Part shown: one piece after another, positions 44,372-48,353 of the stretch
Position numbering within the stretch: position 1 is the first letter of the stretch
Layout of the letters: every line of letters begins with the position of its first letter
Origin: Thermoleophilaceae bacterium
GTDB taxonomy: Bacteria; Actinomycetota; Thermoleophilia; Solirubrobacterales; Thermoleophilaceae
Assembly (NCBI GenBank): GCA_040901445.1
Contig: JBBDYQ010000004.1
Span: 84,854 to 133,245, forward strand
Length of the DNA stretch: 48,392 nucleotides
Direction: 5' to 3'
Program-made: the position numbers and the translations under genes
Notes under the pieces: model-generated
Seen by the model: the letters and a program-made list of their open reading frames with translations, nothing else
What the model was told of the DNA's origin: nothing
Databases searched by the model: none

Positions 44372-44433
44372 TCTCGCGATAGGGCCTGACTTCTCGCGCG
44401 GCAACGCGTTCCTGCCTCGAACGAAACGGCAAA

Positions 44434-44483
44434 CCGGCCGCGAGGCCGGGGCGCAAAACCAGGGGCCTCCCACCGCGGAGGCC
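44434..44483 (+). terminator. Two hairpins between the GH15 gene and the secreted protein gene
   Basis: CCGGCC-GCGA-GGCCGG (44434-44449) and GGCCTCC-CACCGC-GGAGGCC (44464-44483) are consecutive stem-loops. They may terminate the carbon cluster. The second ends only 12 nt before the next Shine-Dalgarno, so it may also fold in that gene's leader. Confidence 0.5.
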
Positions 44484-44507
44484 GCCCAGTTGCCGAAGGA
44501 GGCATCG

Positions 44508-45437
44508 ATGTCCACGAAGTTCACAACCACCTGCGCGCTGGCCTGCGCGGCGGTGCTCGCCGTTCCGGCGAGCGCGAGCGCCGGCAGCTTCGGCGACGCC
44601 GTCGACGAGGTTCGCTCGCACACCAGCAAGGCCGATCGCGGGCTCGACCGCGCAGAGCGGCTTCTCAACCGCGACCGGGACCGCGACGCCGGCCGGTCCT
44701 ACGCGCAGAGCCGGCGCGAGCTGGCTCGCGCCCGGCGCCTGGCCCGCCGGCTCGAGCGACGGGCCGACAACTCCCGCGAGCGCGCCGCCGCCGCCGAGGC
44801 ACAGGAGCTCGTGGCGGACCAGCTCGACGAGAACGTCGAGCAGCTCGCCGGCATGCTCGACGAGGCCAGCGGCCGCGTGGAGAGCCGCATCGCCCAGGCC
44901 GCCCTGGCGGACGCGCGCGGCCGCGACAAGGCGATCGCGGTGATCACCGCCATCCTCGGCGACGGCGTGCCGAGTCGTGCCGCCGAGGGTCTGACCCGTG
45001 CCCTGTCGGCGCTGGTTTCCGACCGCGACGAGGAGGTCGAGGAGCTGACCGAGGTGCTGTCCAGCGAGGATGTCTCGGAGGCCAACCGGCGGCGAGTCGC
45101 GAGCACGGTCGAGGAGAGCGTCGACGGGCAGGCCACGGCCGCCGCGAAGCTGTCCGAGCTGATCGCGAGCGAGGACATGCCGGAGCAGTCGAGGGCCGGG
45201 CTCCAGCGCGCTCTCGACGCCGTGAACGGCGCGCGCCGGCGCTCCGTGGAGACCCTGTTCGGGCACGCAGAGCGCATCCCCGAGTTCATCCGCGGCTTCG
45301 TGGTGGACATCATCGGGCGCGCGATGGAGGACCCGCGGGGCTTCGGCCAGAGCCCGCCGGTTCCGCCCATCCCCGTGCCCGGAGGCGACGGCCTGCCGAT
45401 CCCGGGCGGCCTGCCGATCCCGGGCGGGCGTCCGTAG
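44508..45437 (+). CDS. Secreted helical protein A, paralogue of the protein at 47153
   Basis: The 309-residue product has a signal peptide (MSTKFTTTCALACAAVLAVP, cleavage near ASA-GSF). It is then almost entirely charged helix: DEVRSHTSKADRGLDRAERL, a DRDRDAGRSY arginine-rich stretch, and long Glu/Arg segments. A Pro/Gly tail ends it (PPIPVPGG repeated as GLPIPGG). The ATG at 44508 has AAGGAGG 5 nt upstream. The opening helix matches the start of the protein at 47153 (V-x-SH-x3-ADR-x-LDR-x2-RL), so the two are distant paralogues flanking the sigma factor. A periplasmic or surface sensor role is inference. Confidence 0.75.
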   Translation: MSTKFTTTCALACAAVLAVPASASAGSFGDAVDEVRSHTSKADRGLDRAERLLNRDRDRDAGRSYAQSRRELARARRLARRLERRADNSRERAAAAEAQELVADQLDENVEQLAGMLDEASGRVESRIAQAALADARGRDKAIAVITAILGDGVPSRAAEGLTRALSALVSDRDEEVEELTEVLSSEDVSEANRRRVASTVEESVDGQATAAAKLSELIASEDMPEQSRAGLQRALDAVNGARRRSVETLFGHAERIPEFIRGFVVDIIGRAMEDPRGFGQSPPVPPIPVPGGDGLPIPGGLPIPGGRP

Positions 45438-45450
45438 GCACCGTCCCGCG

Positions 45451-45484
45451 CTGAGCGCGCACGGCTCCGGCCGGGCGCGCTCAG
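45451..45484 (+). terminator. Hairpin between secreted protein A and the sigma factor gene
   Basis: CTGAGCGCGC (45451-45460) and GCGCGCTCAG (45475-45484) form a perfect 10-bp stem with a 14-nt loop, 13 bp after the stop. The sigma gene's Shine-Dalgarno (AAGGGA) follows at 45505, so read-through may be partial. Confidence 0.6.
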
Positions 45485-45517
45485 GCGCGGACGGGTGTCT
45501 GCCGAAGGGAACCATGG

Positions 45518-47053
45518 ATGTCCGGGGCCTCCATACGCCTGCCGCACGACGATCGCCTGGCGCGCCTTGCCGCGACCGGCGATCGCGACGCGTTCGCGTC
45601 GATCTACCGGCGCCACCATCAGGGCCTCTACCGCTACTGCCGCTCGATCCTCGGCAACGACGAGGATGCGGCCGACGCGCTCCAGAACACGATGGCGAGC
45701 GCGATGCAGGCGCTCTCGGGGGAGCGGCGCGACGTGGCGCTCAAGCCGTGGCTCTACCGCGTCGCCCACAACGAATCGGTCTCGCTGCTGCGCCGGCGCC
45801 GGCCGCAGGCCACGATCGAGGCGGCCGACGCGACCCCCGGGCCGACACTCGAGGGCACCGCGGAGTCCCGCGAGCGGCTGCGCCAGCTCGTGGCGGACCT
45901 GCGGGAGCTGCCGGAACGCCAGCGGGGAGCGCTGCTCATGCGCGAGCTGAGCGGCCTGTCCTACGCGGACGTGGCCGCCGCCCTGGGCGTCTCGGCAGGC
46001 GCGGCGAAGCAGAGCGTGTTCGAGGCGCGCACCGCGCTCCACGAGCTCTCGGAGGGTCGCGCCATGGCGTGTGATTCCGTGCGCCGCTCGATCTCCGACC
46101 GCGACGGCCGCGTGCTGCGCGGGCGGCGGGTCCGGTCGCACCTGCGCGACTGCTTGGGGTGCCGTGACTTCCGTGACGCCATCGACTCCCGCGGCGCCGA
46201 TCTTCAGCCGCTCGCTCCGCCGCTGCCGGTCCTTGCCGCCGCCGGGCTGCTCGAGCGCCTGCTTGGCGGCGGGGGCGGCGATGGCCCGGGTGGCGGGCTC
46301 GGCACATCCGAGATCGGCGCCGATGCCGCTCTCGGCCAAGCCGCAGCGATGGCCGGGGCGGGCACGGGCGCGGCGGGGCCGGGAGGGTGGATCGCGGGTG
46401 CGCTCGGTGGCTCCGTGGCCGCCAAGGGCGTCGCTACCGTGGCGGCCACGCTGGCCGTCGGGGCGGGAGCTGCGGGCCTCGCCGTATCTCCGGGCGAGGA
46501 GGCCCGTCCCGCTGCCGAGGCCAGTGGCCAGGCGCCTGGCGACCCGGGGAATGCGGCCGGGCTCGAGTCCGGCGACGACGGCGACGGTCGCCGGCGGAGC
46601 GCATCGAAGGAGCGCGCGGACCGCGTGCGCGACGGGCGGAAGGGCAGCGATCGCGATCGCGAGAGCGACCGGATCGACCGCGGTGATCGCGGCGACGAGA
46701 GCGATGCAGCCGAAGCTCCGCGCGGTGGCACGCGGCCGGGCGGGAACGCTCCGTCGCGTGAGCGCGGCCACCGCCCTGGGCGCCCGCCCTCCGGCGAGGA
46801 TCGCCGGGGTCCGCCGGCCGGCGCCGAGCGCCCGGACGGCGCCGGGCCCCCGAGCGGTGGCGGCCTGCCGGAGCCGGCTGAGCAGCACGCGGGTGGCCAG
46901 GTACCCGACCAGGGCGCCGGCGCCCCCGGATCGCAGGCACCCGCCGGTGCTCCGGAGCCGGGGGCTCCCTCGCTCCCGGATCGCGGCGCGGGAGCGGCGC
47001 CCGGCGCGGGCGCGCCGGCACCGCCGGACCTGGTGCCCGACGTGGGCCCATAG
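45518..47053 (+). CDS. ECF-type sigma factor fused to a zinc anti-sigma-like domain, a membrane helix and a disordered tail
   Basis: The 511-residue chain has four parts. Residues 24-92 are sigma region 2 (AFASIYRRHHQGLYRYCRSI, then DALQNTMAS and WLYRVAHNESVSLLRRRR). Residues 120-175 are region 4 (LPERQRGALLMRELSGLSYADVAAALGVSAGAAKQSVF). Residues 185-215 carry C185-x22-H208-x3-C212-x2-C215, the zinc anti-sigma pattern. Residues 291-323 are one hydrophobic helix (WIAGALGGSVAAKGVATVAA), and the rest is a long Pro/Gly/charged tail that would be outside the cell. The fusion implies a membrane-tethered sigma factor released or activated by a signal. It lies between two secreted paralogues. The ATG has AAGGGA 7 nt upstream. 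Confidence 0.85.
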   Translation: MSGASIRLPHDDRLARLAATGDRDAFASIYRRHHQGLYRYCRSILGNDEDAADALQNTMASAMQALSGERRDVALKPWLYRVAHNESVSLLRRRRPQATIEAADATPGPTLEGTAESRERLRQLVADLRELPERQRGALLMRELSGLSYADVAAALGVSAGAAKQSVFEARTALHELSEGRAMACDSVRRSISDRDGRVLRGRRVRSHLRDCLGCRDFRDAIDSRGADLQPLAPPLPVLAAAGLLERLLGGGGGDGPGGGLGTSEIGADAALGQAAAMAGAGTGAAGPGGWIAGALGGSVAAKGVATVAATLAVGAGAAGLAVSPGEEARPAAEASGQAPGDPGNAAGLESGDDGDGRRRSASKERADRVRDGRKGSDRDRESDRIDRGDRGDESDAAEAPRGGTRPGGNAPSRERGHRPGRPPSGEDRRGPPAGAERPDGAGPPSGGGLPEPAEQHAGGQVPDQGAGAPGSQAPAGAPEPGAPSLPDRGAGAAPGAGAPAPPDLVPDVGP

Positions 47054-47152
47054 GACATCGGTCCACAAACCACCCGCACCCTCCAGACCTGGGTTTCAAT
47101 GCGCGGCGGTAGGGAGGGCACGGAACGCCCGTCCCATGGCAAGGAGGCACTC

Positions 47153-48304
47153 TTGAAGCTCAGGTCACTCACCGCGGCGGGCGCAGCCCTTGCCGTCCTC
47201 GCGCTCCCGTCAGCGGCGGCGGCGCACTCGAACCCGGACTACAGGGACGTCACGTCGCACGTCCGCATCGCCGATCGCTCGCTCGATCGCGTAACGCGCC
47301 TCGTGGGCGTGGGCGACCTGTCGGAGGCAAACGACGAGCTGCGCAAGCACCGCAGCCACATCCGCGCCGCCGTCAAGGACGCCGGGCGCACCCTGCGCAG
47401 CGCCGACAACACTCGTGATCTCCGTCGCGTCGCGCTCGGGTATCGCAGCGTTGCCCGCCAGCAGGGCATCGACGCCGCCCAGTACACCCAGCTGCTCGGC
47501 AGCGTCACGGGCTCGTTCCAGACGCAGCTCGCGCGGGTCCTCAACGCCTCCCTGTCGGAGCGCGAGGACGTGCTCGACCAGCTCACCGCGCTGGTGGACG
47601 AGCTGCCCGCCGGCTCGCAGGTCGGCGTGTCGCGCTGGATCAGGCACCTCACCAACGACGGCGATGCACAGGTCGGCGCCCTGCTCGGGCTCCTGACCCA
47701 GAGCCAGACGGCGTTCCCGCCGAACGTGCAGGACCTGCTGGCCACGGCGCTGGAGCTGGCCACCGGCGCGGTGGAGGAGGCCATGGGCCGCCTGGACGGC
47801 CTTGCGGCGATGCTCCCGGCCCAGGCGCGCGAGCCTGTGGAGATGGCGCTCGCCCAGGTCCAGACCACGCTGACGATGGTGCGCGGCATGCTCGAGTCCT
47901 TCGTCGGCACGCTGCCGGCGGTGAGCCCGGGCGAGGTGCCCGCGCTGCCGGACTTCGCCACGCTCCTGCCGGGGCTGCAGAACGTGCTCCCGGGCTTCGG
48001 CGGCACGCTGCCGGGCAGCGATGAGCTGCTGGGCAACCTCACGAACATCCTGCCCGCGCTGCAGGGCCTGATCCCCGGCCTCGGCCAGGGCCTTCCGGGC
48101 CTCGGCGGCGGGGGCGTGCCCGGCGCGGACCAGATCCTCAGCCAGCTCGGCACGCTCGTGCCGGGCCTGGGCGATCTGCTCGACAACCTGGTGGGCGACG
48201 TCGGCGTCCTGCCGGGCGGCGGCACCGGCGGCGGCGCCACCGACCCGGTCTCGGGCCTGCTGGACAACCTCCTCGGGGGGCTGCTCGGCGGACTGCTCGG
48301 CTGA
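47153..48304 (+). CDS. Secreted helical protein B with Leu/Gly/Pro-rich tail
   Basis: The 383-residue product has a signal peptide (MKLRSLTAAGAALAVLALPS, cleavage near AAA-HSN). A helical domain follows (RDVTSHVRIADRSLDRVTRL, matching protein A), then more helices. A C-terminal 130 residues repeat Leu-Pro-Gly units (LLPGLQNVLPGFGGTLPG, GLIPGLGQGLPGLGGG) and end LLDNLLGGLLGGLLG. The start is a TTG with AAGGAGG 5 nt upstream, the same spacing as protein A. A strong terminator follows. The tail may be disordered or form a surface-binding repeat. The function is unknown. Confidence 0.72.
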   Translation: MKLRSLTAAGAALAVLALPSAAAAHSNPDYRDVTSHVRIADRSLDRVTRLVGVGDLSEANDELRKHRSHIRAAVKDAGRTLRSADNTRDLRRVALGYRSVARQQGIDAAQYTQLLGSVTGSFQTQLARVLNASLSEREDVLDQLTALVDELPAGSQVGVSRWIRHLTNDGDAQVGALLGLLTQSQTAFPPNVQDLLATALELATGAVEEAMGRLDGLAAMLPAQAREPVEMALAQVQTTLTMVRGMLESFVGTLPAVSPGEVPALPDFATLLPGLQNVLPGFGGTLPGSDELLGNLTNILPALQGLIPGLGQGLPGLGGGGVPGADQILSQLGTLVPGLGDLLDNLVGDVGVLPGGGTGGGATDPVSGLLDNLLGGLLGGLLG

Positions 48305-48322: not shown

Positions 48323-48353
48323 ACGAGGGGCCCCGCGGCGCGGGGCCCCTCGT
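48323..48353 (+). terminator. Strong terminator hairpin
   Basis: Bases 48323-48336 (ACGAGGGGCCCCGC) pair perfectly with 48340-48353 around a 3-nt loop, giving a 14-bp stem 19 bp after the stop. It ends the sigma/secreted-protein cluster. The remaining 39 bases to the window end show nothing I can name. Confidence 0.85.

Follow-up and report, generated by a model that had tools for sequence, protein, structure and literature searches.

The 48,392-nucleotide stretch of contig JBBDYQ010000004.1 from a Thermoleophilaceae bacterium (henceforth the window) carries, towards its downstream end, a fused extracytoplasmic function (ECF) sigma factor gene set between genes A and B for two secreted proteins. 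This trio, all of whose genes lie on the same (+) strand, as do the other window features described below, is probably best understood as a two-input system for expressing secreted proteins of the surface or matrix, in which a tethered, self-activating ECF sigma factor is combined with products that are also gated by cyclic di-GMP (c-di-GMP). According to this proposal, the sigma factor would be anchored at the membrane in an inactive state, restrained by a zinc anti-sigma-like segment and a membrane helix of its own, until an envelope event at its outer tail freed the sigma part, probably via regulated proteolysis; the freed sigma would then recognise nTnAC-N14-nnCGTTnT before its own transcription unit and before the A/B genes, and translation or continuation of the A transcript, which opens with a c-di-GMP-I aptamer, would additionally be c-di-GMP-dependent. 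A preliminary description of the same DNA had correctly reported the coordinates, sequence motifs and fused domain architecture of the trio, and had supposed that the tethered sigma drives the flanking genes; the riboswitch and promoter ahead of A had escaped it, and an input from c-di-GMP was unforeseen. Its hypothesis came through on three counts considered below, in that the linkage recurs among relatives, A and B are homologous, and the zinc motif is conserved.

The c-di-GMP-I (GEMM) riboswitch aptamer ahead of A (44418..44497) scored 56.1 bits with RF01051 against a gathering threshold of 35, and its 3′ end runs into the A ribosome-binding site AAGGAGG (44496..44502), an arrangement from which it may be expected that translation of A, or continuation of its transcript, is c-di-GMP-dependent, whether ligand binding switches expression on or off. 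It resembles established members of the class (RF01051 / RF03167) in aptamer fold, in conserved core and in its site at the Shine-Dalgarno sequence of a secreted-protein gene. With R1, a model constructed from 42 aptamers, the window copy among them, the same element scored 85.5 bits, and compensatory changes that preserved pairing were recorded at 12 of the 17 consensus pairs. The window sequence scored 54.9 bits with RF03167, the model for the c-di-GMP-I-GGC variant, and thus fell under the cut-off of 59, which many relatives' aptamers do pass; since it also retains the ligand-pocket sequence CGCAAA, as against the RF03167 consensus CGCGAA, c-di-GMP would seem to be its likelier ligand. Scanning 40 relatives' loci with cmscan placed a riboswitch ahead of A/B genes at 26 loci, a total in which L010 and L036 represent a single place, and R1 returned 30 matches in 37 A/B-family loci. 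No riboswitch was detected before B in the window, even with filters off. A Shine-Dalgarno-sequestering helix was entertained as the general mechanism of the switch, and the predicted window fold does contain a helix pairing the Shine-Dalgarno sequence with a segment 5′ of the aptamer; the idea was rejected, as such pairing occurred only at chance level over 31 leaders, and the relevant window segment, UGCCUC, falls at or ahead of the expected transcript start.

Linkage of fused sigma, riboswitch and secreted protein was assessed in 41 fused-sigma loci (563 kb in total) gathered from named genomes by means of a sigma4-zinc profile and without reference to A/B. An A/B gene adjoined the sigma gene in 12 of these loci, 11 of which also possessed a riboswitch, the exception (L234) being a weak A/B case (E 1.5e-6). 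Matches to R1 stood beside the sigma gene in 14 of the 41, comprising the same 11 loci plus L216, L199 and L203, the last with a weaker match of 37 bits, and in these three the riboswitch lies near small secreted proteins with GTPFSxCV repeats or similar rather than A/B. Throughout the 563 kb, 15 strong R1 matches (at least 68 bits, window counted) adjoined fused sigma genes, all of them before secreted-protein genes; three weaker matches were likewise near sigma genes, and none was recorded elsewhere. The preliminary description had proposed a three-gene unit, of which the linkage was upheld and the fixed order was not: the number of genes varies, the partner is sometimes another secreted protein, the trios themselves are ordered A-sigma-B (window), sigma-B-A (L218), B-sigma-A (L197) or with A divergent (L210, L221), and a sigma gene with one A/B gene is commoner than any trio. 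The genes beside the fused sigmas at L199:6996-7427, L203:9115-9567, L207:9353-9739 and L216:2030-2539 encode small secreted proteins in which SKKHVxGxKGTPFSxCV-like motifs are repeated, and three of the four have a riboswitch in the vicinity.

Exact dyad counts proved too weak for the A/B leaders, and the promoter motif was taken instead from an expectation-maximisation (EM) search of the 75 bases before A/B-type riboswitches together with the sigma-linked leaders of L199, L203 and L216. The resultant motif, [CG]nTnAC-N12..14-nnCGTTnT, attained a log-likelihood of 115.9, and none of 12 shuffled sets exceeded 54.8. The window example, an ECF-type promoter CCTGAC-N14-CGCGTT (CCTGAC-N14-CGCGTTCC; 44385..44412), has a matrix score of 14.5 and is itself a member of the motif training set. 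A strict form of the promoter pattern found four matches in the parent genome compared with two in the control, only the A site being convincing. By comparison, other c-di-GMP-I leaders from the order, 59 in number, yielded CTAAAG-N14-nnCCGATA (176.1, compared with at most 60.0 for shuffled sets), a motif similar to TAAA...GCCGATAA, the flagellar/WhiG consensus that has been reported for type IV pili of Rubrobacter (PMC8325347). The matrix itself was assembled from 18 leader sites hand-picked from the EM output, mostly A/B but with those of L216 and L199 included, and contained no sigma-gene promoters. For 22 of 38 sigma genes the upstream sequence reached a matrix score of at least 12, the site generally standing 110-140 nt ahead of region 2, as opposed to 1.9% of shuffled sequences. 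Over the 41 loci, and with training sites included, match density was 0.240/kb within 1.5 kb of a sigma gene and 0.021/kb farther away, an 11-times difference, and the matrix distinguished A/B-type leaders (20/33) from the other c-di-GMP-I leaders (1/59) with a Fisher probability of 1.2e-10 that is uncorrected for relatedness and partly circular. All three genes of the trio bear the motif in the relatives L210, L218 and L221. These results lend support to the supposition that the tethered sigma drives the A/B genes.

A number of observations weigh against this reading of the locus. The sites in the matrix were chosen by hand, with relatedness uncorrected and with leaders other than A/B (L216, L199) among them, and the density comparison includes training sites; 13 of the 33 A/B-type leaders scored below 12, among them some orphan copies remote from sigma genes; the window itself showed no promoter motif ahead of either sigma or B, a single operon being assumed there; for 29 of the 41 fused sigmas no A/B gene lies within reach, although some of these are on short contigs; and pairing between the Shine-Dalgarno sequence and a 5′ segment was present in 15 of 31 leaders compared with 39% in shuffles, a frequency not above chance.

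The first alternative to be considered is that linkage exists without direct control, the shared promoter being read by another ECF sigma, perhaps a fused paralogue, and the window sigma having some other regulon. Candidates for such a role are not scarce, the genome in question having four matches to the sigma4-zinc profile and 34 to Sigma70_r2. However, the motif is concentrated around and upstream of sigma genes of this one type, and its letters shift with sigma subclade, which counts against another sigma reading the shared promoter: subclade II sigmas (RRAVFDAR) are accompanied by CATCAC...CGTG before A/B in L097, L099, L101 and L212, and before the sigma gene itself in L211, whereas clade I sites have other -35 hexamers. 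This alternative is accordingly judged unlikely.

A second alternative, to which much the same low probability is assigned, is that the secreted proteins, or their build-up outside the cell, bind the sigma tail and so close a feedback loop, a version of which had featured in the preliminary description, where either the secreted proteins or wall stress might signal to the tail. Such a loop would be consistent with the promoter common to sigma and A/B, and with the sigma tree, in which A/B partners occur in several separate lineages. The same kind of sigma is, however, found beside unrelated secreted proteins in L199, L203, L207 and L216, and alignment of related sigmas revealed tails that are low-complexity and poorly conserved, so that A and B are better accommodated as products of the module than as a specific ligand.

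Gene A (44508..45437, ATG start) encodes an all-helical protein of 309 residues with a signal peptide and a Pro/Gly-rich end, and gene B (47153..48304, TTG start) a helical paralogue of 383 residues, likewise secreted, with its own AAGGAGG at 47141..47147; in both cases the Shine-Dalgarno sequence lies 5 nt ahead of the start codon. The pattern V-x-SH-x3-ADR-x-LDR-x2-RL, already remarked upon in the preliminary description, is present in both proteins (VRSHTSKADRGLDRAERL; VTSHVRIADRSLDRVTRL), and searches of the parent genome retrieved B with A (E 3.9e-15, 30% identity) and A with B (E 2.5e-10), confirming them as true homologues and excluding a chance resemblance. Inspection identified signal peptides with AxA before GSF and HSN, respectively, and C-terminal ends comprising Pro/Gly-rich or Leu/Gly-rich stretches. 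AlphaFold models prepared with 16 (A) and 14 (B) relatives were all-helical with long helices in matching order, albeit at modest confidence (mean predicted local distance difference test scores of 60.6 and 59.5, the first three B helices being at ~90). Neither protein belonged to any Pfam or NCBIfam family above cut-off, a Foldseek search with A returned nothing at E 0.001 or better, and solved-structure and fold searches with A/B produced only designed or generic helical bundles, none of them reliable. The idea that A/B might correspond to DUF5667 was rejected for want of Pfam support or any relevant paper. A profile of A alone contained no stretch sufficiently conserved for scanning contigs. 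The A/B family had no match in the libraries searched and may be a new family of secreted proteins. In the subclade II loci L097, L099 and L101, the sigma tail terminates in a conserved stretch of helical appearance (...LLDGVDGILQNLFGRR) that calls to mind the ends of the A/B proteins.

The fused sigma gene (45518..47053) encodes 511 residues, within which Pfam located both Sigma70_r2 (PF04542; E 5e-14) and Sigma70_r4_2 (PF08281; E 2e-12) over cut-off, with no region 3 between them, as is characteristic of ECF sigma factors. Pfam, alignment and hydropathy together gave a residue map consisting of sigma2 (29-95), sigma4 (128-174), a zinc anti-sigma-like motif (185-215; C185-x22-H208-x3-C212-x2-C215), a hydrophobic segment (~305-323; Kyte-Doolittle mean 1.91) and a Pro/Gly-rich tail of 188 residues. 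On hydropathy, the segment behind the zinc motif is a predicted membrane helix, and a similar one is present in nearly all relatives, usually 50-90 residues past the zinc motif and followed by a variable tail. A Pfam scan of the window protein behind sigma4 gave no match, and hence none to a carbohydrate-binding module. The C, H, C and C of the motif are nearly invariant across 16 related sigmas, the clear exception being that of L103 (G102), and the pattern recurred in 39 of the 41 independently collected loci, in keeping with its anticipated conservation. The zf-HC2 profile gave no significant match to the window sigma, and weak matches in eight of 13 sibling sigmas at E below 0.1 (best E 0.0021). 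At E 1e-10 the sigma4-zinc profile matched 186 of 201 genomes of the order, many of the weaker matches perhaps covering sigma4 only; fused sigma-zinc proteins are common in Solirubrobacterales.

That the zinc motif might be no anti-sigma device at all, with the sigma constitutively active and A/B controlled by the riboswitch only, is very improbable: the missing zf-HC2 match in the window and the L103 sigma, which has no zinc segment yet stands beside a riboswitch-led gene, would accord with it, but the near invariance of C-H-C-C, the weak zf-HC2 matches among siblings, and the behaviour of SCO4117 from Streptomyces coelicolor (ECF52), a version of which without zinc finger, membrane region and binding module raised SCO4117 expression, read as autoactivation (PMC5826349), all tell against it.

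The preferred reading, that of a tethered and self-activating sigma with c-di-GMP-gated products, has precedents for its parts. Like ECF52 (PMC5826349), and with ECF48 and ECF53 (PMC8999054), the window protein is a single actinobacterial polypeptide that unites a sigma factor with a zinc-finger-like motif (zf-HC2 in ECF52), a predicted membrane helix and a long, proline-rich and presumably outer tail, and autoregulation may be supposed for it as for SCO4117. Membrane release has been proposed for all three groups (PMC8999054; PMC5826349), and is proposed here on the same grounds of ECF-type autoregulation, a zinc anti-sigma-like segment and a membrane anchor; a further parallel is IutY of Pseudomonas putida (ECF243; PMC8999054), in which sigma and membrane anti-sigma part are likewise joined in one protein and the sigma is freed by regulated proteolysis. 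The parent genome contains site-2-protease-type M50 matches and 17 GGDEF matches. Unlike ECF52, to which it is likened on architecture, the window sigma has no carbohydrate-binding module match, its partners are riboswitch-led secreted proteins, and its motif is nTnAC-N14-nnCGTT rather than the CSGYN-17-SRHA proposed for SCO4117. The RsiG system, of which single-motif proteins have been reported from Rubrobacter and Thermoleophilia and which controls type IV pili in Rubrobacter, similarly joins c-di-GMP to sigma control; there the nucleotide acts on an anti-sigma protein, whereas here it would act on the target mRNA and in company with a different sigma. The window also differs from the other c-di-GMP-I copies of the order, with their flagellar/WhiG-type promoters, in that its ECF promoter is held in common with the neighbouring fused sigma.

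Fused-sigma architecture and riboswitch class are each already known; a search of the open-access literature, outside which lay the 2021 ECF reclassification and most subscription papers, found no link between them, and their pairing is provisionally regarded as new. Were the proposal correct, an envelope-sensing fused sigma and a c-di-GMP riboswitch would converge on the same genes, two signals might have to agree before secreted protein was made, and there would be available both a testable regulon for a poorly studied order of soil bacteria and a small system for studying release of a sigma tethered by its own anti-sigma part. A wider proposition, put forward tentatively as one for which the case is almost but not quite evenly balanced, is that Solirubrobacterales deploy a hitherto undescribed modular system in which the self-tethered ECF sigma (envelope) and c-di-GMP riboswitch (lifestyle signal) act as two locks on a secreted cargo that is interchangeable, be it A/B helical proteins, Cys-repeat proteins or hydrolase-like enzymes. 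This same genome contains, at L136:6254-8132 (C15), another fused sigma-zinc gene, immediately followed by a c-di-GMP-I riboswitch that heads a gene for a hydrolase-like secreted protein.

Within the window, the presence of the motif only before A and the common direction of the genes suggest that A, sigma and B are probably one transcript from a single promoter ahead of A. Between A and sigma there is a strong stem-loop (45434..45503; -61.4 kcal/mol, z -4.2), large and near-perfect and without a T run, which may reduce sigma output and perhaps set the A:sigma ratio. The transcript likely ends at a GC-rich inverted repeat 3′ of B (48325..48351), which has no long T run and therefore went unlisted by the terminator scan. 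Some 330 nt 3′ of B, past the window end on the same contig and strand (L069:8490-10844), lies a gene for a PAS-GAF-GGDEF-EAL protein; it was rejected as a conserved part of the module, none having been found beside relatives' modules. Elsewhere in the order (L135-L194), c-di-GMP-I riboswitches precede genes for type IV pilins and for CAP/SCP-like, subtilase-like and hydrolase-like secreted proteins, and since these have both a riboswitch and flagellar/WhiG-type promoters, c-di-GMP may act on them both via WhiG-RsiG and via the mRNA.

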